This document shows, one piece after another, positions 7,472 to 24,178 of a stretch of DNA of 47,795 nt (positions are counted from its first letter, which is position 1; every line of letters begins with the position of its first letter). The stretch lies in the NCBI GenBank assembly GCA_020250175.1, contig JADCEN010000055.1:1-47795 (forward strand), given 5' to 3'. The notes under the pieces are model-generated. The model did not search any database, had not been told where the DNA came from, and saw only the letters and a list, made by a program, of their open reading frames with translations. A program made the translations under genes and the position numbers. The DNA is from Rhodobacter sp. Lineage in GTDB: Bacteria; Pseudomonadota; Alphaproteobacteria; Rhodobacterales; Rhodobacteraceae.

Positions 7472-8167
7472 TCATGTGCGCGCCGCCTCGAAGGCCGCCC
7501 AAGCCGCCTCGAAGGCCGCAAAGTCGAACCCGGGCGTGCGGGCAGGATCCAGGACCAGACGTTCGGTTTCCTGCAACTTGCGGATCGCGGCCGCAAGTGA
7601 GCCTATGACCTCCGGCGGAACCACGACAGCACCATGACGGTCGACATGGACAAGGTCGCCTTGCCTTACGGCCAGCCCCATCACCCGGACTGGCTGGCTT
7701 ACCGAGCGCACATGGACATAGCCATGGCTCGGCCCGACGCTGCCCGCGATCACAGGAAAACCTTGTGGCAGGTCACCAAGATCACGGACAACGCCGTTGG
7801 TCAGCGCGCCCGACATGCCAAAGCCCTTGTGGATGGTGGTGTTGATTTCGCCCCAATAGGCGCCGACGCAATTGGGGTAGTCGAGGTCTTCAATCACGGC
7901 AACGGATGGCTTTGGCGCATCATGCATGGCTTTGTAATAGGCCATGCGGCGGGCCTTGATGACCTCTGGCGGCTCGGTTGGGGGGGCAAGTGCTGCGATC
8001 TGGGCGGTGGCAGCATGGCCCACCACGGCGCGACCGGGCTCGGTGCAGACCATTGTGCCACGGGTGAAGCCATGAAAGCCGCGCTTGCCCTGCACCACCT
8101 CAATGGCGTTGCAAACGGTCGGCGTGTCTATGCGCGACAACAGGTCGAAAAGTGTTGGGTCCATCAT
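7472..8167 (-). CDS. RraA-like / HMG-CHA aldolase family protein
   Basis: A 231-residue protein of the RraA-like fold. This family includes 4-hydroxy-4-methyl-2-oxoglutarate / 4-carboxy-4-hydroxy-2-oxoadipate aldolases, which split tertiary hydroxy acids into pyruvate plus oxaloacetate or pyruvate. The core motif GALTNGVVRDLGDL (residues about 120-133) has the substrate Arg128 and metal-linked Asp129. DRHGAVVVP follows later and is also typical. It is the last gene of the long catabolic operon, and its start overlaps the stop of the preceding hydrolase (ATGA, 8164-8167; a second ATG is at 8164). A closing aldolase step is plausible. Non-aldolase members exist, so the reaction is an inference. 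Confidence 0.8.
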   Translation of the reverse strand: MMDPTLFDLLSRIDTPTVCNAIEVVQGKRGFHGFTRGTMVCTEPGRAVVGHAATAQIAALAPPTEPPEVIKARRMAYYKAMHDAPKPSVAVIEDLDYPNCVGAYWGEINTTIHKGFGMSGALTNGVVRDLGDLPQGFPVIAGSVGPSHGYVHVRSVSQPVRVMGLAVRQGDLVHVDRHGAVVVPPEVIGSLAAAIRKLQETERLVLDPARTPGFDFAAFEAAWAAFEAART

Positions 8168-8853
8168 TCCTCCAGCCAGCGGCGCAGGGCCACTGTCGTT
8201 TCCACAGGGCGTTCCAGCGGGGGCAAATGCCCTGCGCCATCAACGATCACCAACCGTGATTGCGGCATCAATCCGTGCATCAAGTCATGCCGGTCGCGCG
8301 GGCAAAGCCGGTCTTCGGCGCCCATCAGCACCAGAGCCGGCCCCTTGAATGCGGCCAGCGCCGCTTGCCGGTCCGGCCGGTCGCGCAACGCCCGCGACTG
8401 GTGGGCAAAAACCTGCGGCCCAAGCGATAGCGCCATGTCGAGGCACAGATCGAGAATCGCTTGCTTGCCTGGACCCGCTGCAAGGTAGTTCGGCTTCATC
8501 TCGTCGCGGATCACCGATCGAAGGCCGCCAGACAGGGCTTTTGCGATCTGGGGGGCACGGCGGGCCTGCACCGCGGGCAACTCGGCCACCGGGTTGGTGT
8601 CCAGAAGGGCCAGCCGCTCGACACGGGTTGGGGCCTGCGCCAGCACCTCCATCGCAAGTATGCCACCCATCGACAGCCCGGCCAGAGCAAAGCGGGGCGG
8701 CGCATCCCGCAGCAGGATGCGCGCAAGGCCCGCCATGCTGTCAGCTCCGGTCGGGATGACATGCACAACCTGGCGAGGGTGCAGGGCGGCGGGAAGGCCG
8801 CCCCACATTCGCGCGTCGCACATCATGCCGGGGATAAGGACAAGCGGTATCAT
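8164..8853 (-). CDS. Alpha/beta hydrolase
   Basis: A 229-residue cytoplasmic serine hydrolase. The nucleophile elbow GLSMGG places Ser61. An acidic residue follows in LVLMGAEDRLCP (about 190) and a His in GAGHLPPLERP (about 210), completing a canonical triad. The N-terminus IPLVLIPGMMCDARMW matches the oxyanion-hole strand of pimeloyl-ester/carboxylesterase-like members. No signal peptide is seen. It is coupled by 4-base overlaps to the MetE-like gene upstream and the RraA-like gene downstream, so it probably acts on an ester, lactone or C-C bond within the same pathway. Substrate unknown. Confidence 0.85.
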   Translation of the reverse strand: MIPLVLIPGMMCDARMWGGLPAALHPRQVVHVIPTGADSMAGLARILLRDAPPRFALAGLSMGGILAMEVLAQAPTRVERLALLDTNPVAELPAVQARRAPQIAKALSGGLRSVIRDEMKPNYLAAGPGKQAILDLCLDMALSLGPQVFAHQSRALRDRPDRQAALAAFKGPALVLMGAEDRLCPRDRHDLMHGLMPQSRLVIVDGAGHLPPLERPVETTVALRRWLEE

Positions 8854-9971
8854 GGGACGCGGCGCGCACCCTCTTTCAGCGTGGCAAGCTTGGCCCAGGC
8901 GATTTCAGGGTCCACCGCGCCAAAACCTGCAAAGGTGCCAAAGCCGCAATCGCTGCCCGCCACGACGCGGTCATGGCCAAGGATGTCGGTGAACCGTTGC
9001 AAACGCTGCGCCACGAGGTCGGGGTGTTCCACGAAATTCGTCGTGGTATCGACGGCACCTGGCACCAGCACCTTGTCGTCGGGAATCTCCTTTGCCCGAT
9101 CACGAAACACGGTCCACTCGTGGCCGTGGCGTGGATTGGCGGTTTCAAACAACAGATAGGTCGCCGGAACTGTCATCAGCAGCGGAAAGACCTTCGCCAT
9201 GTCGATGTCACAGACATGCGGACCCTCATAGTTGCCCCAGCAGATGTGCAGCCGGATTCGGTCGCGGGGCAGGCCCGTCAGCGCAGTTTGCAGCGACTCT
9301 ACATGGGTTGCTGCGACGTTCAGGAATTCGTCATCCGAAAGATGCGTGAACAGCATGTGCCGCGACAGCGCGAGGTCGGGGCAATCAAGCTGCAGATCGA
9401 GCCCCGCGTCCAGAATGGTCCGGTATTCCTGCTGCATAGCCGACGCCAGCGCATGAAGATAATCCTCGCGGCTGGCGTAATGGGCATTTTGCAGGAACAG
9501 GCTGATGACCCCCGGCGATGCCGCATTCATGAACCCTCGCGTCACCCCATGCGCGGCCATTGCGGCCTTGAGGTTGGCGATGTCCTTTTGCAACTCGCCT
9601 TGTCCCTTGGCCGCCACCGGCCCGGTGCATTGCGGCCGTGCATACTGCGGCGTGCCGCCCTGTTTGGCCAACCGGTCCAGAAAGCTGGGGAACAGTTTCA
9701 GGTCGTTCGGCGCGTTGCGTGGGCTGTCGCCGGAAAAGCCAGTGTAGCGATCTTTGACATATGTCGCATAGGAAATCTTCGAACACTCGCCGTCCGAGAC
9801 GATGTCGATCCCCGCTTCTTTCTGGCGGCGGACGTTTTCCATCACGGCGGCAGCCATGCAGGCGTCAAAGGCCGCAGGATCATAGACCTCGCCTCGCTCG
9901 CGCGCGAAAAGGAAATCGACAACCGGCTGCGGCCGGGGCAGCGATCCGACATGGGTGGCAAGAAGCGACAT
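8850..9971 (-). CDS. MetE C-terminal-type (cobalamin-independent methionine synthase II family) zinc enzyme
   Basis: A 373-residue stand-alone protein with the TIM-barrel catalytic half of MetE. The N-terminus LLATHVGSLPRPQPV and VSDGECSK are family hallmarks. The zinc ligands of MetE align with His242 and Cys244 (RLHICWGNYEG), Glu276 (LLFETANPR) and Cys342 (GSDCGFGT). It lacks the MetE N-terminal domain. Relatives include methyl/alkyl transferases such as epoxyalkane:coenzyme M transferase and many uncharacterised catabolic proteins. In this operon, far from methionine genes, it more likely activates a thiol or transfers an alkyl/methyl group from the substrate than makes methionine. That role is inferred. 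Confidence 0.82.
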   Translation of the reverse strand: MSLLATHVGSLPRPQPVVDFLFARERGEVYDPAAFDACMAAAVMENVRRQKEAGIDIVSDGECSKISYATYVKDRYTGFSGDSPRNAPNDLKLFPSFLDRLAKQGGTPQYARPQCTGPVAAKGQGELQKDIANLKAAMAAHGVTRGFMNAASPGVISLFLQNAHYASREDYLHALASAMQQEYRTILDAGLDLQLDCPDLALSRHMLFTHLSDDEFLNVAATHVESLQTALTGLPRDRIRLHICWGNYEGPHVCDIDMAKVFPLLMTVPATYLLFETANPRHGHEWTVFRDRAKEIPDDKVLVPGAVDTTTNFVEHPDLVAQRLQRFTDILGHDRVVAGSDCGFGTFAGFGAVDPEIAWAKLATLKEGARRVP

Positions 9972-9999
9972 GGTTCCGTCCCTTTCGCAGTGGTTATCT

Positions 10000-11361
10000 C
10001 TACTTGATGGTTTCCGGATCCTGTCCGACGATCAGGGCCGGATCGCGGGCAGTCATCACCGCGAAGCCGGCGACTGTGCCTTTCGGGCTGAACCGGCCTT
10101 CGCCTGCAACAGAAAGCTCGTGTGTGTTGGCAAAGTATTCGAAGGCAAGGCACTTGCCACCTGCGCCATTGCCCCGCGCACAGAAGTCAGTGTTCACCGC
10201 AGGGGTCGAGCAAGAATCCCGGTCCGAGAAATGCAGGTTCAAGGGGGCGGTGACGTCCTGCGGCGCATCAAACGCACCGATGGCCTGCATCAAGGGCACA
10301 AGACCTGTGTCGTGGACTGCGGTGAACCCGCCATCTTCGCGATCCGTGATGGCCCACGACCATTGCCCTGCGTCCGCCACCTGCGCGTTCAGGGTCGAAT
10401 ACATCTCATCCAGCTTCATCTCTATGGCTACGCGGACCAAGGGCGCAGACCATTGGCCCTTCTGCCAGTCCCACTTTGTCTGGTCGAGTGTCCCGATCCG
10501 ATTCGGCGGAGAGCCGAAAACGAAGTTTGGGTTGACGGTGCCGTCGGCCCCGATGGTCGTGCCGGTCCAGGTGCCGTCGCCGGCCAGGACTGCCTCGAGT
10601 GCGGTTTCGATCGGCGGGTCGGTTTGTAGCTGGATGAAGCGGTCGACATAGATGCCCGACCCCAGCGCGCCGGAGGCTATGGAAAGCCCGTTTGCAGCAC
10701 CTTTGCCAGTTGCGGCCAGCACGATGGCGGCCACATCGCCGCCCTGGCTGTGACCGAGGGCATGAACCTTGGAAAGGTCAAGCTTGACCGCACCGGCCCC
10801 CGCGTCGATCCCCGGCGCCCCTATGCCGGGCGCTGCGGCCAGGAGGTTCAGCGCATCCACGGCGTAGAAGACGGGTGACAGGCATGTGCCATTGTCCCAA
10901 GTTTTCATCCAGTCGTGCCCGTCAGCCGGCTTTCCGGCAACTGTGCCCTGGCCACGATAGCCCGGCATCAGAACCGCATAACCCGCATCGGACCAGGCGC
11001 ATATGACAGGCGCGCAATACCCGCCTTGGTTGCAGGAATACGGATAGTCAGGTGCCGCGTCGGCGCCGACCCAGCCATGCAGGAACAAGGCGACCGGGTA
11101 GCCACCCTCCAGCGAAGGTGTTGCAGGCAGTTCCAGCCGTGCATAAAGGCCGAGGCCGTCAGAGCAATAGGACAGCATCCGCGACCTTGCCCCGGCAGCA
11201 CGACCGGGGCAGTCAATCTCTGTCACCCCGGTGACTGCGCCATCATAGCTGCGCGCACGCAGGCTTTCGGTGGAAAGTTCGGTGAGCGAGCCGATCGAGG
11301 TATCGCCAAGTGCCGTCATCGGCATCGGCGGGAGCATGCAGGCAAAGAGTGGTTTCGACAT
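10000..11361 (-). CDS. Cysteine-rich alpha/beta hydrolase (esterase/lipase-like)
   Basis: A 453-residue hydrolase. The strand ALFLHGWVGAD (residues about 91-101) and nucleophile elbow LGHSQGG (Ser205) are clear, with NTHELS late in the sequence as a candidate catalytic His. There are ten cysteines, several closely spaced (YSC-x5-C-x4-C near 110-121; DSCSTP, DFCARG and GKCLAF near the C-terminus), which suggests disulfides and an extracytoplasmic enzyme. The N-terminus (MSKPLFACMLPPMPM) is not a normal signal peptide. Either export uses something else, the start is wrong, or the cysteines are reduced or metal-bound. A strong ribosome site (GAAGGGAAGGG) precedes this ATG. It sits in the catabolic operon between the cupin and MetE-like genes. 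Confidence 0.78.
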   Translation of the reverse strand: MSKPLFACMLPPMPMTALGDTSIGSLTELSTESLRARSYDGAVTGVTEIDCPGRAAGARSRMLSYCSDGLGLYARLELPATPSLEGGYPVALFLHGWVGADAAPDYPYSCNQGGYCAPVICAWSDAGYAVLMPGYRGQGTVAGKPADGHDWMKTWDNGTCLSPVFYAVDALNLLAAAPGIGAPGIDAGAGAVKLDLSKVHALGHSQGGDVAAIVLAATGKGAANGLSIASGALGSGIYVDRFIQLQTDPPIETALEAVLAGDGTWTGTTIGADGTVNPNFVFGSPPNRIGTLDQTKWDWQKGQWSAPLVRVAIEMKLDEMYSTLNAQVADAGQWSWAITDREDGGFTAVHDTGLVPLMQAIGAFDAPQDVTAPLNLHFSDRDSCSTPAVNTDFCARGNGAGGKCLAFEYFANTHELSVAGEGRFSPKGTVAGFAVMTARDPALIVGQDPETIK

Positions 11362-11423: not shown

Positions 11424-12392
11424 TTAAAGCAGGCGGCCCGTCAGCCCTGCCGTATCACTGGTGTTGACGACGCGGTAAAGGCTTGCCTCGCCGGTCATCG
11501 AAGGGGCCAGCGAATGTTCCAGTCCCGGCGGGATGGCAGCGGTATCGCCGGGGTTCAGCACGCTGGAGCAGCCCGACCACGACAGGCGCCAGTGCCCACG
11601 CATCGGCATCAGAACCTCGTGGCGGTTCAGAGTATAGGGCGTGTCCGGGATCGAACCCCGCGACAGGAAATCAACCTCAAAGCCGGGACGGTCGCGCAGT
11701 TTGCCATGTTCACCGATGACCAAGGCGGGCTGCCGGTCGGACAAGGCCATCAGGTCCCAATAGCGGGCGACATGGTTCGGGATCACCTCGGCGGTTGTGG
11801 GTTCCGGAAATGCCTTCAGTTCCTCGTCCGTCAGCAGCGGCATGGGCGACACGCCTTCAGGCAGACTCTGACCCTTTTTGGTGTCGTAAAGCTTGCCGTT
11901 TTTGCCCAGAACCAACCCATAATCCCTGGCGTCGGTGATCACCTGCGGGGCCCAGATCACGCCGCCCCCGGCATCATCCCCGCCGAGGATGGCCATGATC
12001 ATTCCGTAGTCGGTGCCGATGTTTTCAAAGGCACGGAAGATGCCGGTCGGGATGTTGAAGATGTCGCCTTCCTCGGCCACAAACTCGCCCGCCGTGCCCC
12101 AGCGGCCCCAGAAAAACCGCCAGCGCCCCTTGAGCACGAAGAAGACCTCGGCTGTGCGGTGGCTGTGCAGGCTGTTGCGGCAACCCGGCGGCTGGCCTGC
12201 AGCCCCGATGTTGAAGCCGGGGGTGTCAACGATGTGGACGTGCTGATCCGGACTTTCCGACACCCCAGCGCCGATAATCGTGAAGTTCTCCTTGCGGTTC
12301 GACCCCGGCGTATGGGCGTCGATGAAGGCAGTCTTGCAGGGGCGCAACTCGCCGTATCGGACAATACGGGCTTCCATTTCTTGCGGTGTCAT
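11424..12392 (-). CDS. Bicupin protein
   Basis: A 322-residue protein from ATG 12392, preceded by AAGGAG; a TTG one codon earlier is less likely. It has two cupin barrels. The first (residues about 65-140) has SLHSHRTAEVFFVLKG with metal ligands His76, His78 and Glu82, but its second motif EGDIFNIPTGIFRAF has Phe/Arg where the third His is expected. The second barrel (about 225-315) has RHEVLMPMRG in motif 1 and PGDTAAIPPGLEHS with a His in motif 2. Bicupins of this length include dioxygenases and isomerases. With the split metal site I cannot say which. It is part of the catabolic operon. Confidence 0.8.
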   Translation of the reverse strand: MTPQEMEARIVRYGELRPCKTAFIDAHTPGSNRKENFTIIGAGVSESPDQHVHIVDTPGFNIGAAGQPPGCRNSLHSHRTAEVFFVLKGRWRFFWGRWGTAGEFVAEEGDIFNIPTGIFRAFENIGTDYGMIMAILGGDDAGGGVIWAPQVITDARDYGLVLGKNGKLYDTKKGQSLPEGVSPMPLLTDEELKAFPEPTTAEVIPNHVARYWDLMALSDRQPALVIGEHGKLRDRPGFEVDFLSRGSIPDTPYTLNRHEVLMPMRGHWRLSWSGCSSVLNPGDTAAIPPGLEHSLAPSMTGEASLYRVVNTSDTAGLTGRLL

Positions 12393-12458
12393 CAATGATG
12401 TCTCCTTTGTTCGCCGGAATGCTCCGGCGCTTTGTGCGGTCGCGCCCGGGTTCGGCGG

Positions 12459-13439
12459 CTACGGTTCGACCGCGCCGGTTGCGAGCAGGATTTGCCTCCA
12501 GATCGCGGTTTCGTCGAAAAGCGTGTAGTCCCGGCGCAGGCCATATGGCCCGAACTCGGCATGGGTGATGCCCAGAACAAAAACCTCGGCCCCCGTCGGA
12601 GCCCCGAAGGCACCCCAGCCGGAATGCTTGCCGTGAAGGCTCCACCGCACAGCGGCCCGTGGCGGCATCATCGGGTCATCGCGGCCAATCACATGATGGA
12701 TGGAAAAGGCCGCATCAGGGAAAGCCGCTCGCAAGGGCATCCAGAAGCGGTCGGCATCGCCATGGCTGTGGCCGGTGACCCCACCAGGATATTCAAGCTG
12801 CGCGGCCCGGTCGTAATCCTTCGGGATAGCCGCCATGTCGGCCGCCATGATCCGCTGCAAAAGATCGGCCAGCCGCACGCCCCATTCACTGTCGTTGCCG
12901 CGCCCCCTATACGGGCCTGCGATGTCATTGGCGGGGGTGAGTGGCTTGGTGCATTTGTCCGGTCCCCCTTCGCGGGCGATCTGGTCACGGGCAAAGGCCT
13001 GTGGGTCCCACCCCATTTGTCGCACGACGGCACCCTGATCCCGGATCAGCCATTCGTCGTCGATCATGTTGGCCCGCGCATGGCAATCCGCGATGATCCG
13101 GTAGACAAGCTTCTTGCCGGTCGCCGCGCCATACTGTCCGCCCCCGAGGTGCGTGGCCGTCGAAAGGATGCGGTGCGAAGACAGCATCCCCTCTTCCGGT
13201 GTGCCCGACCAGATCACATCTTCGCCCAGAAGCGTGCGATCGGGGAATTCGGCGAGCGTCGCCATGGTGGCCCCGATGACCCTTTGATTGCCTGTTGAAA
13301 CCCCGGTCGGCATCCGCACCACGATATCGGGATGATAGTAGCGGTGCAGGGTTGCGATTCCGCGGTCCTCCCATATCTCTTTGGTTATGCTCAGGATGTA
13401 GTCGGGAAAGTCGCTGAACTTGGCGTCGAAGCCATTCAA
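12459..13439 (-). CDS. NTF2/SnoaL-like double-domain protein C (divergent member)
   Basis: The start is read as TTG 13439: GGAGG lies eight bases upstream, and the TTG overlaps the stop of the LacI gene as TTGA. A longer frame to 13604 only overlaps LacI codons. The 326-residue product has two SnoaL-type alpha+beta halves (about 20-150 and 185-320). Motifs include YYHPDIVVRMPTG and EDRGIATLHRYY in the first and FWMPLRAAFPDAAFSIHHVIG in the second, typical of polyketide cyclase-like NTF2 folds. Such folds bind small hydrophobic or polar ligands and catalyse cyclisations, isomerisations, dehydrations or hydrolyses. It differs from the three close paralogues in this cluster. Reaction unknown. 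Confidence 0.78.
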   Translation of the reverse strand: MNGFDAKFSDFPDYILSITKEIWEDRGIATLHRYYHPDIVVRMPTGVSTGNQRVIGATMATLAEFPDRTLLGEDVIWSGTPEEGMLSSHRILSTATHLGGGQYGAATGKKLVYRIIADCHARANMIDDEWLIRDQGAVVRQMGWDPQAFARDQIAREGGPDKCTKPLTPANDIAGPYRGRGNDSEWGVRLADLLQRIMAADMAAIPKDYDRAAQLEYPGGVTGHSHGDADRFWMPLRAAFPDAAFSIHHVIGRDDPMMPPRAAVRWSLHGKHSGWGAFGAPTGAEVFVLGITHAEFGPYGLRRDYTLFDETAIWRQILLATGAVEP

Positions 13440-14455
13440 GGTGTCGTCCTCCGTTTGACCGATCCCCGCTCGATCAGCGGTCCGTCGATGCGGATGCGTG
13501 ATGGCGCGGTTTCGCCCTCGATCCGTTTGAGAAGAATTTCCACGGTTGCCTCGACCATCCTGCGGACCGGTTGGCGGATTGTGGTGAGGCTGTAAGAAGG
13601 CCAAGATGCAAGTGGCACATCGTCATAACCGATGACCGAGACATCGCCCGGCACTGAAAAGCCAAGGTCGAAACGCAACGTGTCCATGACGGCAAATGCC
13701 ATGTGATCGTTGCCGACAAAGATGGCATCCGGCCGGTCCGGCCCGGCAAACAGGCTGCGTGCGGCCCGTGCCGCCTCGTCGCGGGAATACATGCCGTCGA
13801 TCATGGCGAAAGGCGCTTGTCCGGCCTCGGCCAGGGCATCGCGGAAACCCCGCGCGCGATCACGACCGGTTGATGATCCCTGCCAGCCCATGACATGGGC
13901 GATGCGGCGGTGCCCGGTGTCGAGCAGATGCCGAGTGGCTTTTCGCCCGCCGGCCAGATTGTCAGATGTCACCTCTGACAGGCCGGCATCGTCCTGGCCA
14001 CGGTTGAACATGACCACCGGAATACCCACGGTCCGGCAGCGCGCCGTCAGATCATTCGTCATTGCAACCGATGCGGTGATTATGCCGTCAACCTGGTAAT
14101 CCAGCAATTCCTGCATGACTTGCGGAACTTTCTCGGTCGAATTTTCGGCCATGAAGACAAGGACATGATAGCCCTTTTCCTGAAACGACCGGCTGAGAAG
14201 CTCGATGGCCACCGGGTAGAACTGGTTTTCCAGATAGGCCACCACCAAGCCGATGATCCGCGTCCGGCCGGTGATCATCGCGCGGGCAAGCGGATCGGGC
14301 CGATATCCCAGCTGTTCAGCCGCCGCGCGCACTTTTTCGACCGTCGCCTTGGACGCCGATGCGCCGGGCGTGAAGACCCGGCTGACGGCAGACTGGCTGA
14401 CACCCGCCAGCCGGGCAACATCCATCGCGGTTATCTTGGAAGGTTGTTCGTTCAT
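13436..14455 (-). CDS. LacI-family regulator embedded in the catabolic operon
   Basis: A 339-residue regulator from ATG 14455, whose ATGA overlaps the SDR stop. Helix-turn-helix at residues 8-33 (AMDVARLAGVSQSAVSRVFT), hinge to about 65, then the sugar-binding-protein-like effector domain with family landmarks GIITASVAM, FNRGQDD, PDAIFVGNDHMAFAV and SVIGYDDVPLASW. It lies inside the operon and not at its head. The natural target is the pair of LacI-type sites at 23003-23040 in front of the binding-protein gene and the divergent NTF2 gene. The inducer would then be the imported compound or an early product. Confidence 0.9.
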   Translation of the reverse strand: MNEQPSKITAMDVARLAGVSQSAVSRVFTPGASASKATVEKVRAAAEQLGYRPDPLARAMITGRTRIIGLVVAYLENQFYPVAIELLSRSFQEKGYHVLVFMAENSTEKVPQVMQELLDYQVDGIITASVAMTNDLTARCRTVGIPVVMFNRGQDDAGLSEVTSDNLAGGRKATRHLLDTGHRRIAHVMGWQGSSTGRDRARGFRDALAEAGQAPFAMIDGMYSRDEAARAARSLFAGPDRPDAIFVGNDHMAFAVMDTLRFDLGFSVPGDVSVIGYDDVPLASWPSYSLTTIRQPVRRMVEATVEILLKRIEGETAPSRIRIDGPLIERGSVKRRTTP

Positions 14456-15216
14456 CCGGCGGTCCAGCCTCCGTCCACGATCAGATGCGTGCCCGTCATC
14501 ATCGCCGAGGCATCCGAGGCCAGAAACACCACCGGCCCCATCAAGTCTTCGATTTCGCCGACGCGGCCCAGCTTGATCTTCGACAGGATCCATGCGCGCC
14601 GAGCGGGGTCTTTCAGGGTTTGCTCTGCCAGAGGCGTGCGGATGAAGGTCGGACACAACGTGTTGACGCGAATGCCGTGAGGTGCCCATTCCAAGGCCAT
14701 CGACTTGGTCATGCCTTCAAGCGCATGCTTGTTCGCGCTGTAGACCGCACGGTCCGGACCGCCGACATGGCCCATCTGGCTGCTGACATTGATCAGGCTG
14801 CCCGGTTTGCCTGCCGCGATCAGACCGCGCGCGACCTCGCGCGTCAGAAAGTAAGCGGCCCGCAGGTTCAGGGCCATGGCGGCGTCGTAGTCTTCGGGCG
14901 TGGTGTCCAGCGCCGGGGAATGGCGGGCAAGACCGGCAGAGTTCACCATCACGTCGAAGGGGCCATGTGCGGCCACCACCGCCGCCATTGCTGCAAGGTC
15001 GGTGATGTCCAACGCCCGCGCCTCGGCGCTGCCGCCCGACGCCCGGATGGCATCCTGCACCCGTTCCAACTCTGCAACCCGGCGCGCGACCAAAGTCACC
15101 TCCGCCCCCGCCTCGGCCAAAGCCGCAGCCGCGCCAAGCCCGATGCCCGAAGAAGCGCCGGTTACCAGCGCGCGGCGGCCATCCAGCCGGAAAGAAGGGG
15201 TTCTTGGCAGCATCAT
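14452..15216 (-). CDS. Short-chain dehydrogenase/reductase (SDR)
   Basis: A classical SDR of 254 residues (from ATG 15216; a second ATG is at 15213). The cofactor motif TGASSGIG is at residues 19-26, the NSAG motif near 92, Ser145/146, and the catalytic pair Tyr159 and Lys163 in YSANK. ARR just after the second strand (44-46) suggests NADP(H), but this is only suggestive. It is coupled through ATGA overlaps to an NTF2-like gene upstream and to the LacI gene downstream. It likely oxidises or reduces a hydroxyl/keto group of the pathway intermediate, alongside the HisD-type dehydrogenase. Confidence 0.88.
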   Translation of the reverse strand: MMLPRTPSFRLDGRRALVTGASSGIGLGAAAALAEAGAEVTLVARRVAELERVQDAIRASGGSAEARALDITDLAAMAAVVAAHGPFDVMVNSAGLARHSPALDTTPEDYDAAMALNLRAAYFLTREVARGLIAAGKPGSLINVSSQMGHVGGPDRAVYSANKHALEGMTKSMALEWAPHGIRVNTLCPTFIRTPLAEQTLKDPARRAWILSKIKLGRVGEIEDLMGPVVFLASDASAMMTGTHLIVDGGWTAG

Positions 15217-16256: not shown

Positions 16257-17278
16257 TTTGTCTCGAGATCCCGTACCTGTGCCATCAGGTCGATCCCCAT
16301 CTGCCCAAAAAGATGCAGCATGTCGACGAAGACCCAGTTCTCGGTGAACATGTCCCCATCGCGGCGCCAGAAGTCGATACCATTGACGGAAACAGGTTTT
16401 CCCGAAGCAGCGTGACCAAGATAGGGCCCGGTATGATTGGCAAGGACGCCGGGCAGGCTTGATGCGCCGACGAAGTCGCCCTCGGCAAAAAGGTTGTCCA
16501 GATCGCCCACCTTGCGGTCGGGGAAGGCCACCAGCCAGGGCTTCTGGTGAAAATCCTCGAACTCGCGCAGCGACAGGCAGGCACCTATTCCGCCCGGACC
16601 ATACCATTTGACATTGGGATGAAAGAAACGGGCCATCCCCATCGATTTCAGGTCTGACGTGTCGAAGGCGTTCAGCCCGCCAAAGATGAAGGTGCGGGAA
16701 AACGCCAGAAGGTCATCAGACCTGGCCTGTTGCTGTTCCTCCATCAGTACACCGTTGCAGCCGGTCGGTGCCGGCCAGACGAAGGGCACGCCCTTCGGCT
16801 TTGGCAGCGGCGACAGGTCCATCTGTTCCAGCCAGTCCAGCACGTCGATCAGCATCTGGATGCGGATGATGCGGCCCTCGGGGTCGAATTCCATGAACTC
16901 GGACCAGCGCAGGCGGCGGGTGCCGGGGCGGGCGGGTATGCCCCATACGGGTTCGATCTGTTCGCCGTCCAGATAACCCATCGCACCCACCCAGGCGCGC
17001 CCGTCATCGCCGCCCTTGACCCCGCCGTCAGAGCGGCCACCGATCAGGATATGGGTGATGCGTTCAAGCTTGGGAAAGGCGCGGCGGAGCGGGGCCAGAT
17101 AGTGCGAAACAAAGGCCTCGGGGCCTGTGGCATCCGTCAGCGGCGCGAAGCCCTGCCAGATGACATCCCGGGAAAGGTATCGCGAGGTGGCCTGAACCAG
17201 CCCATCCAGGGGGGCCACGTCGCAGGCAGCCAGATACCCGGCCGCCCGGCCCTTGTTGCGTTGATTCTCCCTGCTCAT
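16253..17278 (-). CDS. NTF2/SnoaL-like double-domain protein A
   Basis: 341 residues from ATG 17278, overlapping the hisD-like stop (ATGA). The N-terminal half (about 20-160) contains [11 protein letters not shown] and [11 protein letters not shown]. The C-terminal half begins [15 protein letters not shown] and ends [20 protein letters not shown], nearly matching protein D. Both halves fit the SnoaL/NTF2 cone fold. It follows the dehydrogenase gene and precedes protein B without a gap, so A and B may form a hetero-oligomer, as NTF2-fold proteins commonly dimerise. The catalytic role is unknown. Confidence 0.8.
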
Positions 17279-18585
17279 TCCGCTGCCATCCCATAGCCGA
17301 CATTCCTGTGCCCATAGCGGCGGACGCGGATGTTGCATTGTTCGGCATGGCCGACAAAGCCCTCCAGCATGCAAAGGCGCGAGCCATAGGCCCCGATCTG
17401 CGCCGCCGCCGCGTCACTGGTAATGCGCTGATAGGAATGGGTTTTCAGGAACTTTCCAACCCACAGCCCGCCGGTGTACCGCCCGGCCTTCTTCGTCGGC
17501 AGCGTGTGGTTGGTTCCGATCACCTTGTCGCCATTGGCCACGTTGGTCCGCGGCCCGAGGAACAGCGCGCCGTAACTGTGCAGCCGTTCCAGATACCAGT
17601 CGTCGCGGTCCGTCATCACCTGCACATGTTCATAGGCCATGTCGTTGGCCACCGTCAGCATCTCGTCATGGCTGTCGCTCAGGATCACATCGCCATAGTC
17701 GCGCCAACTGACTCCCGCCGTGTCGGCCGTGGGCAGGATCGCCAGAAGCCGGTCGAGCTCGGCCATCGTGGCCTCGGCCAGTTTGCGGCTGGTGGTGATC
17801 AGGCAGGCAGGCGAGTTGTAGCCGTGTTCGGCCTGCCCCAGAAGGTCGGTCGCGCAAAGCTCGGCGTCCACGGTGTCATCGGCAAGGATCATGGTCTCGG
17901 TCGGTCCGGCAAACAGATCGATGCCAACGCGCCCGTAAAGTTGACGCTTGGCTTCGGCGACAAAGGCATTGCCGGGGCCGACCAGCATGTCCACGGGCCG
18001 TATCGTTTCCGTCCCCAAGGCCATCGCTGCAACGGCCTGAACGCCGCCCAATACATAGATTTCGTGCGCGCCACCCATCTGCATGGCGGCAACGATCGCG
18101 GGGTGGGGTTCGCCCCTGACCGGAGGGGCGGAGGCGATGACGCGGGGCACTCCGGCGACCGATGCCGTCAGGACCGACATATGGGCGCTGGCCACCATGG
18201 GAAACTTGCCACCCGGTACGTAGCAACCGACGGATTGCACCGGGATGTTGCGGTGCCCGAGCACCACGCCGGGCATCGTCTCGACCTCGATGTCGGTCAT
18301 GCTGGCGCGCTGAGCTTCGGCAAAGCGGCGGATCTGGACCTGCGCAAACCGGATATCTTCCATGTCGCGCGCCGCCACCTTCTGCATCGCCGCTTCGATC
18401 TCTGACGGCGTCAATCGGAAGGATGGCGCGGCATAGCCGTCGAACTTTTGCGACAGTTCGCGCACGGCGGCATCGCCCCGCGTCTCGATGTCTTTCAGAA
18501 TGCCTTCAACGGTCACGCGGACCACTGCATCATCCTCGGCACGGGCTTCGGCGGGTTTGCCGGATTTCAGGTGATGGATGGCCAT
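17275..18585 (-). CDS. HisD-family zinc/NAD dehydrogenase (catabolic paralogue, sulfopropanediol dehydrogenase-like)
   Basis: A 436-residue histidinol dehydrogenase-family enzyme; these oxidise an alcohol to a carboxylate with NAD+ and zinc. Zinc ligands of HisD are present as Gln251 and His254 (QAEHGYNSP), Asp353 ([10 protein letters not shown]) and His413 (EGFVGHAEQ), and the catalytic Glu319-His320 pair is in [18 protein letters not shown] and TGGLWVGKF are also typical. No histidine-biosynthesis gene is nearby. The sequence style (GYVPGG-like loop, EHGYNSP, YTGGL) resembles HisD paralogues such as HpsN that oxidise small polyol substrates. It directly follows the importer genes (10 bp after malK-like), so it probably catalyses the first oxidation of the imported compound. 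Confidence 0.88.
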
Positions 18586-18595
18586 GGCGGTCTCC

Positions 18596-19648
18596 TCAGG
18601 TTTTCACGGTCAAACGGGCGCCTGTCGTGGCGTCGAACAGATGGCAGATACGGGCAGGCACATGGGCGGCGATAGGCTGGCCGATCTGGCCGGCATAGTC
18701 TTTGGCAGCCTTCACCGCGACCAGCGCGCCACCGGCCTGAACCGTGGCCATCGAGGCGTCGCCCAGAAGCTCCATCGAATAGATCGGTGCCGCAATTTCA
18801 CCCGTCGCAGCGATGCTGCCGTCTTCGGCGCGAAAACCGAGTGTGATCGGTCCATCGGGGCCAGACAGGCCGGGGATGCGCACGTTCGCAGCCTCGAAGA
18901 CCCCGGCCATCAGGGTACCCTGCATCAGGTTCATCGCCGGATTGCCGATAAAGCCTGCGACAAAGGTGTTTGATGGGCTGTCATAGATTTGCAGCGGCGT
19001 GCCGACCTGCTGCACCTCGCCCCGGCTCATCACAACGACACGGTCGGCCAGGGTCATCGCCTCGATCTGGTCGTGAGTGACGTAGATCGTCGTGGTTTTC
19101 AGCTCATGGTGCAGGTTCTTGATCTGCGCCCGGGTCGAGACGCGCAGTTTCGCGTCGAGGTTCGACAAGGGCTCGTCCATCAGGAAGACCTTGGGCTTGC
19201 GGACAATGGCGCGGGCCAGTGCCACCCGCTGGCGCTGGCCACCCGACAGGGCTGCGGGTTTGCGGTCCAGAAATTCGGTCAGTTCCACGGTCTTCGCCGC
19301 GCGCATCACACGGTCGTGGTGCTCGGCCTGCGGAATGCCGCGCACCTTCAGCGGGAAGCGGATGTTCTCATAGACCGTCATCGTGGGGTAAAGCCCATAG
19401 GACTGGAACACCATGGCGATATCGCGGTCCTTGGGTTCCAGGTCGTTCACCCGCTTTCCACCGATCAGGATGTCGCCTTCGGTGGCATCCTCCAGCCCGG
19501 CGATCATGCGCATCGTGGTGGTCTTGCCGCAGCCCGAAGGGCCCAAAAGCACCAGGAACTCGCCATCCCCGATTGCCAGGTCCATCGGCTTCAGGCCCGT
19601 AAAGCTGCCCCAGCGTTTGGTCAGATGTTTCAGCTGGATATCCGACAT
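18596..19648 (-). CDS. ABC transporter ATP-binding protein, MalK/UgpC type
   Basis: 350 residues with Walker [11 protein letters not shown] near 36-45, Q-loop FQSYGLYP, signature [14 protein letters not shown] near 135, Walker B VFLMDEP and [15 protein letters not shown]-terminal OB-fold regulatory region follows from about 240, as in MalK/UgpC ATPases of carbohydrate uptake type-1 importers. AAGGATAAGGG precedes the start. It lies 3 bp after the MalG-type permease and 10 bp before the hisD-like gene. It powers uptake of the pathway substrate. Confidence 0.93.
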
Positions 19649-19651
19649 CCC

Positions 19652-20536
19652 TTATCCTTTCACGGCACCGGCGGTCAGGCCGCTGACGATCTGGCGCTGA
19701 AAAAACATGACCAGAAGGAACAAGGGTGCCGTGGCCGAAACGACGGCCGAAACGGCAAACATCACGTTGCCTTTGGTCTGGGTGGTGCCGAGGAAGGACG
19801 CGATCTTGGGGACCATCGTCTGGTTTTCCTGGTTCAGCAGCATCGCGGTCACTGCAAAGTCGTTGTAGGCCAGCAGGAATGAAAAGAGCCCCGTGGTGAT
19901 CACCCCCGGCCACATCACCGGGATTATGACCAATCTGAAGGCCTGAAACCGCGAACACCCGTCGACCATGGCGCTTTCGTCAAGATCCTTGGGGATGTTC
20001 TGGAAGAACGAGGTCAGCATCCACAGCGTGAACGGCTGATTGATCGCCACCAGGACGATGATCGCGGTCGGCAGATGCCCCCAGAGGTTCCACTGGAAAA
20101 ACGGCAGAAGATAACCCGAAACCAACGTGACATGCGGCATGGCCCGGAACACCAATGCCACGATCAGGACCCAGAACACATAGCGGTAGCCCGACCGCGC
20201 CAGCGCATAGCCGCCAAGCGTGCCGAAAGTCAGCGAGATGGTGACGACCGACACGACCACGATCAGCGTGTTCAGCCCCGCCCGCCAGAATTCGTTCGTG
20301 ACCCAGGCTCCTTGATAACCCCGTCCGGTAAAGGCCCCGCCGGTTTCGGTCCGGGTCATCGGGCCGGTCAGGGCATTGGTCCAATCCGCCTTCGAAAAGA
20401 AGTCACCCTCGACCTTGAAGCTGCCCCAGAGGGTCCACAGGAACGGGAAGGCCGCGACGATAATCCAGACGATCAGGAACCCCACCAGCACGGCCTGCAG
20501 CGGCAGCGACCGGCGATCAGCGACATTGGCTGTCAT
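19652..20536 (-). CDS. ABC transporter permease, MalG type
   Basis: 294 residues with about six membrane helices, starting after a short cytoplasmic N-terminus (VADRRSLPLQAVLVGFLIVWI). The EAA loop DLDESAMVDGCSRFQAFRLVIIPV near 200-225 marks a carbohydrate-type importer. The start overlaps the stop of the MalF-type permease as ATGA. The larger periplasmic segment between helices 1 and 2 (about 40-90) is longer than usual for MalG. The permease forms the channel with the MalF-type subunit and the MalK-type ATPase. Confidence 0.9.
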   Translation of the reverse strand: MTANVADRRSLPLQAVLVGFLIVWIIVAAFPFLWTLWGSFKVEGDFFSKADWTNALTGPMTRTETGGAFTGRGYQGAWVTNEFWRAGLNTLIVVVSVVTISLTFGTLGGYALARSGYRYVFWVLIVALVFRAMPHVTLVSGYLLPFFQWNLWGHLPTAIIVLVAINQPFTLWMLTSFFQNIPKDLDESAMVDGCSRFQAFRLVIIPVMWPGVITTGLFSFLLAYNDFAVTAMLLNQENQTMVPKIASFLGTTQTKGNVMFAVSAVVSATAPLFLLVMFFQRQIVSGLTAGAVKG

Positions 20537-21561
20537 GATGCGGTCCTTCCAAAGGATTTCCAGGTATGGACGATCACGGGCGACAACAGGACCACGACAC
20601 CCAGGATGGTCAGCACCGAAGTTGCCGCCGCAGAGGACAACAGCCGGTTGGTGGCGCTGAGATCGGCATAGATGAAGTAGCTTAAGGACTGCGCATGGGC
20701 CCCGGCGTTGAAGCTGACGATCGGCTCGAACACCCGGAAGTTATCCATGATCTTGATCAGCAAAAGGAACGTGGTCAGCGGCAAAAGATGCGGGATGATG
20801 ACGAACCGCAGCCGCTGCCAACGCGTCGCGCCGTCGATCATGGCCGACTCCAGCGTGTCCTGCGGCACGGTCTGCAGGCCCGCGTAGTAGACGACGAAGG
20901 CGAAGGGCGCGGTGGACCAGACGCCATAGACGATCAGCATGGACCACATCATCGGGGTCGAGGCCTTGACGGAAAGGTCAGGGTCGCCCACCAGCGACTG
21001 GATCGCCACGCCAAGAATGCCGCGCGCATCCACCATCCAGAACAGGATCAGCGCACCCACCAAGGGCGTCACGATCATCGGCAACAGCGAGAAAAATATT
21101 GCGGGACCCCGCAAGAAACGCGGAATGGCGTTCACCGCCAAAGCGATGCTGAACCCCAACAGGATGGCAAGCGGCGTGACCAGCGCCGTATAGGTCAGCG
21201 TGAATGTCAACGCCCCGTAGAAGGGCAGGTTCAAGACCTGCTTGAAGAAATCTGCGGCTCCAGTTGCCGACGACCAGATCGTGCCGATCTCGGACAGGGC
21301 CAGATGATTGCGGTCGGTATAGATGGCGGTGCCGACAAAGCGCCCCATCGGCGCTGCCTCGCGCAAGGCGGCCGTTGCCTCCACGTCAACGATGGTGGAC
21401 TTCTTGCACCCGAACACGTCGCAATTCTCGACCTCGCGGATCACCTGCTCATGCGGGGCGAAAACCGACTGCAGCAGGACCGAGACGATCGGCATGGCGA
21501 TGAACAACAGCATCGCCAAAGCCGACGGCAGGATGAACCACAGAAAGGTCTTGTGTTTCAT
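20533..21561 (-). CDS. ABC transporter permease, MalF type
   Basis: 342 residues with about six membrane helices. After the first helix there is a large external segment (about 35-115) containing ENCDVFGCKKS, whose two cysteines could form a disulfide. The EAA loop TLESAMIDGATRWQRLRFVIIPHLLP lies near 240-265. Family context and partner genes identify it as the second channel subunit of the carbohydrate-type importer. Confidence 0.9.
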   Translation of the reverse strand: MKHKTFLWFILPSALAMLLFIAMPIVSVLLQSVFAPHEQVIREVENCDVFGCKKSTIVDVEATAALREAAPMGRFVGTAIYTDRNHLALSEIGTIWSSATGAADFFKQVLNLPFYGALTFTLTYTALVTPLAILLGFSIALAVNAIPRFLRGPAIFFSLLPMIVTPLVGALILFWMVDARGILGVAIQSLVGDPDLSVKASTPMMWSMLIVYGVWSTAPFAFVVYYAGLQTVPQDTLESAMIDGATRWQRLRFVIIPHLLPLTTFLLLIKIMDNFRVFEPIVSFNAGAHAQSLSYFIYADLSATNRLLSSAAATSVLTILGVVVLLSPVIVHTWKSFGRTAS

Positions 21562-21640
21562 GATGGCCCATCATGCGAAGATGATCGCAGGTTACCGCGC
21601 CGCGGGGCGCGATGGGTGACGCGGGGTGCAGTTTGAAAGG

Positions 21641-21669: not shown

Positions 21670-21679
21670 TTGTTGCAGC

Positions 21680-22924
21680 TTACTTCAGGAAGCCGCCTTC
21701 TTTCGCGGCGGCTATGTAGGCTGCCTCGATGTCAGCCAGCGCAGTGGCCGCATCTTCCTTGCCGGTCAGGAAGTCGGCAAGATTACCATCTGCCGCCATG
21801 TGCATGGCCCCCATATAGGGTTCCATCGGGTAGGACGGGGCACCTCCGGCGATGCTTTCGGCCACGCCCTGGGCAGCGGCCGTCGGTTGATAGCCTTCGA
21901 TCATCCAGACCGCCTGACCCATCGTGTTCGCAGTCAGGATCGAGGGCGCGATACCGGCCTTCATCGCCATGAAGGTTGCGGCGGCATCTTCGTCCGAGAT
22001 GTTGGCTGCAACCGTCCAGCCATCCCACCACAAGGTCGTCGCCGGGAAAGCGTTGCCGCCCGCCGACGGGGTTGCCGCCGCCACGGTGTTTTCTGCAACT
22101 CCCGGAGCGGACTCCTTGCCATCCATCAGCACTGCGGCGCGCGAGCCCCAAAGCGTGGCGATGGCACAGTTGCCCGCTTCCCATTCCGCCGTGACAGCGT
22201 TCGAATCAAAAGTCAGGAAGTCGGGGTTCATGTAGCCCGTCAGCGCCTTCATTGTTTCCAGCGCGGCCACACCCTTTTCGTTGTTCACCGCAGGCTCGGC
22301 GCTACCTGGCTTGAAGAATTCGCCACCCATGCCAAGATACATGTTCACGAATTCCTGGCCGAGGTTCCAGCCCACGCCATAGGTCGAACAGAATGGCGAC
22401 GCCATCCCGCCAGCGCGGACCTTTTCGGCTGCGGCCAGCAACTCGTCATAGGTTTTGGGTGCTGCAACACCGGCTGCTTCCAGCACGTCCTTGCGAACGA
22501 ACATGTGCTGGGCGTTGGCCATGAAGGCAACCGCCATTACCTTGCCGTCGATCGTGATCAACTGACCTTTCGGAATGTCGGTGCCATGCGCGGCGATCAG
22601 GTCGTCCAGCGGACGAAGCAAGCCTGCGCCCATCAAGGGCACGATCGAAGACGAAGCGACGATGGCGCTGGAATACTCTGCTGGCTTCGCGGTCATGCCC
22701 GGCGCGTTCAGCTTTTCATGGTCCTTGGTCAGGTTCACCTTTACCTCGACCGTGCCGGTTGCGCATGCCGCAGCAGCGTCGGCAACGGTGTGGATGGCCG
22801 GAAAATCATTGCCGACGATCGAAACCTTGCCTGCCGCGATCCCGCAATCGGCGTAGGCAGCGCCAGCAAGCATGGTGGTGCCCAGCAGGCCGGACAGGGC
22901 AAGGCCCCGGATAGACGTTGTCAT
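21680..22924 (-). CDS. ABC transporter substrate-binding protein, carbohydrate type
   Basis: 414 residues from ATG 22924, preceded by GGGAG. A longer frame to 23017 would run into the operator region and lacks a ribosome site. A Sec signal peptide (residues 1-25, LSGLLGTTMLAGAAYA, cut before DCG) is followed by a family-1 type receptor with landmarks such as LDDLIAAHG, AFMANAQHMFVRKDVLEAAGV and YDELLAAAEKV. A Cys pair (DCG and AACATG) near the mature N-terminus may form a disulfide. It is the first gene of the operon after the operator pair. The ligand class is sugar-like by family, but not proven. Confidence 0.9.
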   Translation of the reverse strand: MTTSIRGLALSGLLGTTMLAGAAYADCGIAAGKVSIVGNDFPAIHTVADAAAACATGTVEVKVNLTKDHEKLNAPGMTAKPAEYSSAIVASSSIVPLMGAGLLRPLDDLIAAHGTDIPKGQLITIDGKVMAVAFMANAQHMFVRKDVLEAAGVAAPKTYDELLAAAEKVRAGGMASPFCSTYGVGWNLGQEFVNMYLGMGGEFFKPGSAEPAVNNEKGVAALETMKALTGYMNPDFLTFDSNAVTAEWEAGNCAIATLWGSRAAVLMDGKESAPGVAENTVAAATPSAGGNAFPATTLWWDGWTVAANISDEDAAATFMAMKAGIAPSILTANTMGQAVWMIEGYQPTAAAQGVAESIAGGAPSYPMEPYMGAMHMAADGNLADFLTGKEDAATALADIEAAYIAAAKEGGFLK

Positions 22925-23002
22925 TCTGATCTCCCTGTTCAGCCCGCAAGCAGTGCGGGATTCACCGCTGTGTTCGCGGCATGAAAGAAGATAAAAGCCG
23001 AT

Positions 23003-23040
23003 TGCAAGCGTATGCAACAGTTTTCTTGCATACGCTTGCA
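23003..23040. promoter_or_regulatory. Pair of LacI-type operators in divergent promoter region
   Basis: TGCAAGCGTATGCAA (23003-23017) and TTGCATACGCTTGCA (23026-23040) are exact inverted copies with an 8-base spacer. Each half is itself a pseudo-palindrome TGCA-x2-CG-x2-TGCA with the central CG of LacI-family sites; the centres are 24 bp apart. The pair lies between the binding-protein gene (minus) and the NTF2 gene at 23069 (plus). On the minus strand, TTGCAT within this element followed 17 bases later by TTATCT could be the -35/-10 pair, so binding would block it. Confidence 0.75.
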
Positions 23041-23068
23041 GAATCCTCCATCAAAGGGAAGAACAGCC

Positions 23069-24178
23069 ATGTCACGCGGGATGCACCATATGCTGAGTGA
23101 TGGTTTCGATGCCGAAGCAACGCCAGACGCACAGGTCCGTACGCAGGTTCATCTCCTGTTATGCCGCTTGGCCGAAGCCGGAGCATCCGGTCTTGAAGCC
23201 GCGCTGAACACCCTTGCAGCACCAGACTGCGCATGGCGCGCCGCGCATCCGATGAACGAGGTGCGGGGCACGGCGGCTGCCGCAGCGCGGATTTGGTCAC
23301 CGCTCTTTATGGCCTTTCCGGATTTGGAACGCCGCGACACGATCTTCATTGCGGGGCGCTATCAGGCAAAGACCTTTGTCGCGGCGACAGGCCATTATTG
23401 CGGCACGATGAAGGGTGACTGGCTGGGAATCCCGGCGACCGGCAAGACAGTTTCCCTGCGCTATGGTGAGGTCTGGCAGATCAACGATGATGGCCGTGTC
23501 GTGCAGGCCAATCTCCTTTGGGATGTCCTTGACGTCATGCGACAGGCTGGTGTCTGGCCGCTCGCGCCCTCGCTTGGGGTTGAAAACATGTGGCCAGGGC
23601 CGCTGACAGCCGACGGCGTGCGCCTGATGTCGTCCGCTGCGGCAGATGGCGTTGCAAGCCTGGAACAGACCCTGCAGATGCACAAAACCCTGTTGGAGTT
23701 TGATGACCTTGGCAACTTGTCGCGCGATGCATTGATCGCCATGCCACAACGCGACCACTGGCATCCCAGAATGATGTGGTATGGCCCGGCGGGCATTGGC
23801 ACGACGCGCGGCCTTGACGGCTTTGTTGATGGCCATCAATTGCCCTTTCGCATCGCATTTCACCGCCCCCAAGGCAGCTTGGCAGAGGTTATGGCGGAAC
23901 GTACCCGCATGGGTGCGGGGCATTACATCCGCATCGGTGATGGCCCCTATTCCGTCACCGGGGGCTGGCCGTCGGTCTATGCCATGCATAGGGGGGGCGG
24001 ATTCTGTGGCATGCCTGCCAGCGACAAGCCCGTCTTCATGCGGGTCATGGATTTCTACCTGCATCACCAGGGCCTGATCCGCGAGAACTGGGTGCCGATC
24101 GACATGCTGCACCTGTTCGGCCAGATGGGTGTCGATGTGCTGAGCAGAATGAACGAGGTGCTGCGCAGGTGCCGCTAA
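23069..24178 (+). CDS. NTF2/SnoaL-like double-domain protein D (divergent gene)
   Basis: 369 residues from ATG 23069, preceded by AAGGGAAG. An earlier start at 23012 would lie inside the operators. Two SnoaL-like halves are present. The first has LERRDTIFIAG and VSLRYGEVWQI, shared with protein B. The second begins HWHPRMMWYGPAGIG and ends [20 protein letters not shown], nearly the same as in protein A. It is the only cluster gene on the plus strand and shares its control region with the fifteen-gene operon, which suggests co-regulation. The reaction is unknown. Confidence 0.82.
   Translation: MSRGMHHMLSDGFDAEATPDAQVRTQVHLLLCRLAEAGASGLEAALNTLAAPDCAWRAAHPMNEVRGTAAAAARIWSPLFMAFPDLERRDTIFIAGRYQAKTFVAATGHYCGTMKGDWLGIPATGKTVSLRYGEVWQINDDGRVVQANLLWDVLDVMRQAGVWPLAPSLGVENMWPGPLTADGVRLMSSAAADGVASLEQTLQMHKTLLEFDDLGNLSRDALIAMPQRDHWHPRMMWYGPAGIGTTRGLDGFVDGHQLPFRIAFHRPQGSLAEVMAERTRMGAGHYIRIGDGPYSVTGGWPSVYAMHRGGGFCGMPASDKPVFMRVMDFYLHHQGLIRENWVPIDMLHLFGQMGVDVLSRMNEVLRRCR

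Follow-up and report, generated by a model that had tools for sequence, protein, structure and literature searches.

A conserved gene cluster of Rhodobacter sp. with tandem SnoaL proteins and a distinct HisD-fold dehydrogenase, a candidate for mycosporine degradation

Results

Gene content of the cluster

The window analyzed here is the whole of contig JADCEN010000055.1 (47,795 bp; C51) from Rhodobacter sp. (GCA_020250175.1), whose genome is assembled as 3.9 Mb in 86 contigs; L, G and C numbers below are our handles for loci, genomes and contigs. A continuous minus-strand run from 22924 to 7472 and one divergent gene make up a sixteen-gene region, which is almost certainly a jointly regulated catabolic set and which we tentatively connect to mycosporines. 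The original prediction, made from the sequence without database searches, had placed sixteen genes here, and their coordinates were confirmed. Families also agree, with SBP_bac_1, BPD_transp_1 (twice), ABC_tran, Histidinol_dh (442 bits), SnoaL in four proteins, LacI/Peripla_BP_3, adh_short_C2, Cupin_2, Meth_synt_2, Abhydrolase_6 and RraA-like recognized by Pfam/NCBIfam. The exception is a 453-residue Cys-rich hydrolase reading G-H-S-Q-G-G, for which the Pfam and NCBIfam searches returned no match; its homologue in L006 weakly resembles chlorophyllase, under the cut-off. The features are listed below in minus-strand order, followed by the divergent gene and its promoter, with the number of full-flank loci of relatives (out of 37, see next section) that hold each gene.

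21680..22924, minus strand: periplasmic solute-binding protein, MalE type (Pfam SBP_bac_1; 24/37)
20533..21561, minus strand: ABC permease, MalF type (Pfam; 24/37)
19652..20536, minus strand: ABC permease, MalG type (Pfam; 24/37)
18596..19648, minus strand: ABC ATPase, MalK/UgpC type (Pfam; 27/37)
17275..18585, minus strand: HisD-fold dehydrogenase, putative third subfamily (Pfam, alignment; 33/37)
16253..17278, minus strand: NTF2-A, tandem SnoaL protein, lineage-specific (Pfam; 1/37)
15213..16256, minus strand: NTF2-B, tandem SnoaL protein, query of the scan for relatives (Pfam, structure model)
14452..15216, minus strand: short-chain dehydrogenase/reductase (SDR), KduD/gluconate-5-dehydrogenase-like (Pfam; 31/37)
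13436..14455, minus strand: LacI-family regulator (Pfam; 35/37)
12459..13439, minus strand: NTF2-C, tandem SnoaL protein of a separate branch (Pfam; 35/37)
11424..12395, minus strand: bicupin (Pfam, fold comparison; 33/37)
10000..11361, minus strand: Cys-rich serine hydrolase (GHSQGG), optional (no Pfam match; homologue in 4/37)
8850..9971, minus strand: MetE C-terminal-type Zn methyl/alkyl-transferase (Pfam, motifs; 30/37)
8164..8853, minus strand: alpha/beta hydrolase, PcaD-like, GLSMGG (Pfam; 27/37)
7472..8167, minus strand: RraA-like protein, probable aldolase (Pfam; 20/37)
23069..24178, plus strand: NTF2-D, divergent tandem SnoaL protein (Pfam; 29/37)
23002..23017, no strand: LacI-type operator TTGCAAGCGTATGCAA, exact match to TTGCANNCGNNTGCAA (palindrome, divergent promoter)
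23026..23041, no strand: second operator TTGCATACGCTTGCAG, one mismatch to TTGCANNCGNNTGCAA (palindrome, divergent promoter)

Neighboring minus-strand genes overlap or are separated by less than ~65 bp, except MalF and MalE (118 bp), a spacing that would fit one transcript. NTF2-C probably starts at a TTG after GGAGG. For NTF2-D, the best predicted start is at 23069, which is preferred because the upstream ATG at 23012 falls within the operator. Known sugar-binding proteins are distant from the MalE-type protein (best E 6e-9). Searches of the window for Rfam families and tRNAs were empty.

Conservation and distribution of the gene set

Named genomes were scanned with NTF2-B, which matched 321 relatives; the best 80 were kept, so that weak relatives are under-represented. 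Gene presence was judged by similarity (tblastn/blastp) and not by a gene caller, and full-flank counts cover the 37 loci with at least 8.5 kb on both sides, the other 43 being omitted for short flanks. Since the genes and much of their order return in the loci of these genomes, the set represents more than a chance association. The claim that the region is one conserved catabolic unit is thus borne out, an independent occurrence of the genes being refuted by the 37 full-flank loci. Two of its sixteen members, NTF2-A and the Cys-rich hydrolase, are optional. Five of the 37 loci (L023, L079, L015, L035, L032) hold at most five of the eight core enzymes plus regulator.

Of 398 genomes sampled from the phylum, 22 (own genome included) carry NTF2-B at an E-value of 1e-40 or better, 16 of them belonging to the same family as the window. 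NTF2-B also occurs in 16 of 147 genomes of a family from another class (f40). In Vibrio, NTF2-C is present in 20 of 148 genomes and an NTF2-D relative (48–98% identity) in 58 of 196, the smaller sample being assumed to lie inside the larger one. All 20 Vibrio genomes with NTF2-C also hold the NTF2-D relative, in a few cases at the same locus.

Reduced or related sets are carried by plasmids of the archaeon Halobellus limi, Vibrio pelagius, Ensifer adhaerens, Paracoccus alcaliphilus and roseobacters. Holders that are in culture include Octadecabacter arcticus 238, Marinovum algicola DG 898 and Ruegeria conchae. The E. adhaerens plasmid p-2 (L087), typed as conjugative, encodes an ABC importer, the HisD-type enzyme, SDR, NTF2-C, bicupin, hydrolase and RraA. 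On Marinovum algicola pMaD9 (L091:23997-28112), a dimethylsulfoniopropionate (DMSP) demethylase gene and others annotated for DMSP breakdown lie ~3 kb past the cluster. Two f40 genomes (L188:9542-10567 and L191:9279-10316) hold a lone NTF2-B relative, ~56% to the Vibrio one, which adjoins a pair of genes for an ABC-ATPase and a permease-like protein, the other genes of the set being absent.

A shared operator

The divergent promoter (144 bp) carries two LacI-like palindromes. The exact match to TTGCANNCGNNTGCAA is unique in its own genome, where eight sites with one mismatch lie outside C51 and the cluster versus none for the reversed control pattern, making a wider regulon possible. Within the window alone, allowing two mismatches gave 3 matches against 3.4 expected, which is not significant.

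The operator was then counted in the loci of other genomes with one mismatch allowed, using two mononucleotide shuffles as controls. It occurs in 49 of the 80 named loci (shuffles, 2 and 1), with 75 of 78 sites lying no more than 450 bp upstream of a gene of the cluster, and in 16 of 40 loci of a second set (shuffles, 3 and 1). Those 16 comprise 14 of 20 Vibrio loci, one of 19 f40 loci (L188, with the lone NTF2-B) and L201. A scan per genome found a site in 19 of 24 genomes against 2 of 24 for the control pattern, with none in G718, G729, G730, G732 and G733. The regulator itself conserves VSQSAVSR at a level of 90% or more across 60 sequences. Many Vibrio core clusters replace the operator by the variant TTGGATACGAATGCAA, and Vibrio G422 has a variant with two mismatches ~90 bp upstream of an unlinked NTF2-D relative.

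Some sites lie elsewhere. In Primorskyibacter aestuariivivens, an operator remote from the cluster (L251:7191-7206) precedes a TAXI-type TRAP (tripartite ATP-independent periplasmic) binding protein and what appears by eye to be a fused permease. Those in L252 and L255 are near unrelated-looking genes and may be due to chance.

The HisD-fold dehydrogenase

Pfam supports the predicted HisD-type and SDR oxidoreductases. For the former, HpsN-type enzymes (387 to 374 bits) are nearest among solved structures, followed by HisD (at most 257 bits). HpsN from C. pinatubonensis (PDB 8v35), a 3-dehydrogenase of 2,3-dihydroxypropanesulfonate (DHPS), shares the HisD fold over 409 residues. According to the report on HpsN, its diagnostic motif is GRY[AS]H, with the sulfonate-binding His126, versus GSAPL in HisD, and Lys353 helps to hold the sulfonate (PMC11382572).

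In an alignment of 82 cluster proteins including that of the window (motif patterns were counted over 81), GRY[AS]H is found in none. These enzymes read G[KR][FY]P[ML] at that place, G-K-F-P-M in the window instead of GSAPL, and the His126 position is occupied by Met (50/82) or Leu (32/82). The equivalents of Gln248, His251, Glu318, His319, Asp352, Lys353, His359 and His411 are kept in all 82, among them the Zn ligands (Gln248, His251, Asp352, His411) and the catalytic Glu318 and His319; strict patterns for HpsN residues matched 80, 26, 80 and 49 of 81, the low counts resulting from fixed neighboring residues in the patterns. As His126 is lost and GSAPL is not present while the metal, catalytic and Lys353 positions are kept, the alignment argues for a third subfamily, neither HisD nor HpsN. 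Given these residues, the enzyme probably oxidizes a CH2OH group beside a chelating hydroxyl on an anionic substrate. The cluster enzyme passes the cut-off of the NCBIfam hisD domain model (429 bits vs 243.8), hence this model does not separate subfamilies. Fold and Zn ligands are also common to the cluster enzyme and HisD. The gene neighborhood differs from that of HpsN, and the own genome holds a separate HisD on C36 (GDYVGGPNH).

A third HisD-fold gene of this genome (C10:37440-38660, L084) carries the HpsN motif GGRYSH. It adjoins a gene that resembles by eye a trimethylamine methyltransferase (MttB).

Tandem SnoaL proteins

The four NTF2/SnoaL-like proteins were correctly assigned to the SnoaL family, but each is a tandem protein of ~330–370 residues, the length of two SnoaL domains, and the start of NTF2-D is better placed at 23069. 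All pass the Pfam gathering score for SnoaL or SnoaL_2, with two stretches in NTF2-B, -C and -D. The fold was examined for NTF2-B only, its predicted model being a tandem SnoaL (mean pLDDT 87, pTM 0.90). Its matches in the PDB include PhzA/B, which form an imine from aminocyclohexenones. The tandem arrangement is shared with the polyether epoxide hydrolases Lsd19 and MonBI/BII. Beyond the fold, identity to Lsd19, MonB, PhzA/B and SnoaL2 is only 14–25%, and, unlike those enzymes, the cluster proteins occur in catabolic operons with importers and as several paralogues per cluster. No polyketide synthase is found among the sixteen genes by Pfam/NCBIfam families.

Bicupin, MetE-type enzyme and exchangeable parts

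The bicupin fold is nearest to quercetinase and salicylate/gentisate dioxygenases, from which it differs by its low identity (13–17%, the quercetin 2,3-dioxygenase YxaG included) and by an Arg in place of the fourth metal-binding His. The motif H77-x-H79-x3-E83 is invariant in 30 aligned sequences (HxHxxxE in 79/79). The fourth position reads PxGx[FV]H in 0/79 and PxGx[FV]R in 52/79, the Arg being invariant in the 30 aligned. Aromatic ring cleavage of the gallate type was considered and retained as no more than a possible step, since the bicupin has no close sequence match (best PDB E-value 0.0045).

The zinc ligands of the MetE C-terminal domain are His, Cys, Glu and Cys. In the MetE-type enzyme of the cluster, the motifs HICWGN, LFE and DCGF are kept in at least 90% of 49 sequences, and HxCxGN in 55/57.

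The RraA-like protein belongs to the same fold family as the 4-carboxy-4-hydroxy-2-oxoadipate (CHA) and HMG aldolases. It keeps LTNGV.RDL (LTNGVVRDL in the window) in at least 90% of 35 sequences, including the Arg-Asp pair, which we take to be the catalytic residues of RraA. With the CHA-aldolase models it reaches 32–35 bits, whereas their cut-offs are 179 and 304.5; the NCBIfam model (LigK) gives 34.5 bits against 304.5. RraA and HpcH/HpaI are unrelated families that both include 2-oxo-acid aldolases. In the 74 loci with HisD-type enzyme and bicupin, RraA is found in 31, an HpcH/HpaI aldolase in 26, both in none and neither in 17. This exclusion gives a Fisher value of 8e-9, which is too small since the lineages are not independent, as holds for all our Fisher and hypergeometric values. 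Because RraA and HpcH/HpaI replace each other, RraA most likely acts here as an aldolase, in agreement with the aldolase-type role originally proposed.

Importers are also exchangeable: MalEFGK ABC systems, SSS carriers or TRAP carriers (DctM/DctP), a TonB-dependent receptor in some loci, and MFS carriers in the Vibrio module described below. Recurring neighbors in the 80 loci are an L-fuconolactonase-like amidohydrolase (18), a GMC oxidoreductase (10) and a sulfatase (4).

Serine-related genes

In Vibrio, the NTF2-D relative is part of a module that also encodes a LacI protein, a porin, carriers of the MFS and SSS families and L-serine ammonia-lyase; this module was analyzed in 20 neighborhoods from 19 of the 58 matching genomes. 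The lyase adjoins the NTF2-D relative in 17 of the 20 (exceptions: L221, L222 and L226), and module-bearing genomes have two to three L-serine ammonia-lyase genes each. Module and core cluster are directly adjacent in L207. In two Hyphomonadaceae genomes (L253, L254), the full cluster itself contains genes for L-serine ammonia-lyase and for a glycine-transporter-family protein, and an operator separates this pair from the alpha/beta hydrolase gene. Among the 80 named loci, the lyase appears in these two alone; the serine link is therefore strong in Vibrio and occasional elsewhere.

Neighboring genes in the window

A separate probable operon on the minus strand (1608-7231) encodes a LacI regulator, an SBP_bac_6 binding protein, two permeases, a PotA-type ATPase and a calcineurin-like phosphoesterase, and may perhaps serve phosphodiester uptake. 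It does not belong to the set: neither the phosphoesterase nor the binding protein has a counterpart in any of the 37 full-flank loci. A HisC-type aminotransferase recognized by eye (25765-26900, minus strand) lies near the HisD-type cluster, probably by coincidence.

Discussion

The sixteen genes had originally been attributed to the import and breakdown of a sugar-like or polyol-like compound. Import of a polar compound is supported, but a plain sugar or polyol is probably not the substrate, because some clusters use TRAP carriers (DctP/DctM), the anion-holding Lys of HpsN is kept in 82/82 HisD-fold enzymes, and, in two clusters, genes for the serine lyase and a glycine-transporter-family protein lie by an operator. 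TRAP carriers normally take carboxylates. We tentatively propose that the set mediates the LacI-controlled import and degradation of mycosporines or mycosporine-type compounds, a reading to which we give somewhat less than an even chance. It draws on the conserved unit and its shared operator, the adjacency of serine lyase, the presence of the NTF2-D relative in all 20 Vibrio genomes with NTF2-C, the fold match to PhzA/B, the residues of the HisD-type enzyme, the exchange of RraA for HpcH, the TRAP carriers and the quercetinase-like bicupin. Compounds of this kind have a cyclohexenone or cyclohexenimine ring that bears amino-acid substituents and a methoxy group, as well as a CH2OH attached to a tertiary carbinol.

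After uptake by the importer, the tandem NTF2 proteins would hydrolyze the imine or enaminone linkage and so free serine or glycine from a 4-deoxygadusol-type ring, and each paralogue may act on a different substituent. Serine would be passed to L-serine ammonia-lyase where present. In most alphaproteobacterial versions, the MetE-type Zn enzyme would remove the O-methyl group. The HisD-fold enzyme would then convert the CH2OH beside a Zn-chelating tertiary hydroxyl to a carboxylate, and the bicupin and alpha/beta hydrolase could open the reductone-like ring, with NTF2-C and the SDR contributing dehydration and redox steps. Finally, an RraA or HpcH/HpaI aldolase may split the resulting citrate-like tertiary hydroxy acid into pyruvate- or oxaloacetate-type products.

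Several observations weigh against this proposal, in which the substrate is deduced from gene content. The MetE-type gene is not beside the HisD gene in 11/11 Vibrio loci (~20-kb or 18-kb stretches), nor was it found in 17 Vibrio genomes searched, an empty result that is uninformative for want of a known positive. Because of these Vibrio loci, a methoxy group may not be needed everywhere. At the fourth ligand position of the bicupin, the usual His is missing. The common operator was not found in the Vibrio NTF2-D/serine module (20 loci; shuffles, 0 and 2), apart from L207 where it sits at the core-cluster end, and it occurs in only 1 of 19 f40 loci. Some holders of the set come from soil. In V. 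pelagius, soxBDAG-purU lies beside NTF2 genes in both plasmids, followed in one of them (L094) by L-serine ammonia-lyase; these neighbors point to sarcosine or C1 metabolism, which the lyase could serve. Finally, several parts belong to families typical of sugar acids: the KduD-like SDR, a GarL-like HpcH, the fuconolactonase-like amidohydrolase, SSS carriers and MalE. These counterpoints, from Vibrio MetE and sarcosine genes to sugar-acid families and operator, explain why the mycosporine substrate remains tentative, and why we regard a sugar-acid-like substrate as rather unlikely and another nitrogenous polyol as even less likely.

Closest to the original prediction would be a regulon that handles a branched sugar or a modified sugar acid. 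There, the SDR would form a lactone to be opened by a lactonase, the NTF2 proteins would be dehydratases, the HisD-fold enzyme would oxidize a terminal CH2OH, and the RraA or HpcH aldolase would cleave a 2-keto-3-deoxy acid. Besides the families just cited, the LacI regulator, the MalE-type ABC importer and an SMP-30 lactonase in L093 are compatible with it. Yet no sugar-acid dehydratase or sugar kinase was recognized among the labeled families (a narrower search than one of full genomes), and such a regulon would leave L-serine ammonia-lyase, TRAP carriers and MetE-/GcvT-type methyl enzymes unexplained; we consider it doubtful.

More improbable is that the regulon serves a polyol, N-methylated or conjugated with serine or glycine, that is not a mycosporine, for instance a betaine-like or Amadori-like compound whose nitrogen and C1 parts would be processed by serine ammonia-lyase, sarcosine oxidase, PurU and GcvT/MetE-type enzymes. 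In addition to the V. pelagius plasmids, it would account for a GcvT-type gene in Halobellus, a 41% relative of it together with PurU in L057, and BCCT genes in L007 and L017. But close SoxB/SoxA homologues are confined to the V. pelagius loci L086, L094 and L180 (the last being the L086 plasmid), matches elsewhere reaching just 21–29% (L022, L027, L032, L035), and no Amadori-type deglycase or kinase was recognized among the labeled families. A variant DHPS degradation with the HisD-fold enzyme as HpsN can be dismissed on its motif: HpsN is the closest solved structure, with Zn ligands and Lys353 kept, but GRY[AS]H is not present, His126 is replaced, the own genome has a separate gene with GGRYSH, and none of the fifteen genes (of sixteen) with an assigned family encodes a sulfolactate lyase.

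As for the mycosporine proposal, the importer is of a known kind and the combination of enzymes matches no pathway that we found, in line with the initial impression that none had been described. Among the matches listed, titles and abstract openings of the open-access literature describe neither such a cluster nor mycosporine catabolic genes, which is weak evidence of absence since subscription papers and preprints were outside the scope. A Dinoroseobacter paper on an "ester cyclase" is irrelevant, as it concerns bacteriochlorophyll (PMC10890935).

To conclude, the cluster might represent the first genetically defined bacterial pathway for the degradation of mycosporines or mycosporine-like amino acids (MAAs), with a functionally new class of tandem NTF2 proteins hydrolyzing the ring C–N bond and a third HisD-fold subfamily oxidizing the ring hydroxymethyl group, a composite claim that we advance with slightly more reserve than the substrate itself. 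Our analysis also corrects the annotation of cluster proteins that public plasmid records list as "histidinol dehydrogenase" and "ester cyclase". The set is common, with NTF2-B in 22/398 sampled genomes of the phylum and the NTF2-D relative in 58/196 Vibrio genomes. Mycosporines are "sunscreens" of algae and cyanobacteria, for which only whole-bacterium conversions appear so far among the reports found; if they are the substrate, these genes would encode a sink of aquatic sunscreens.

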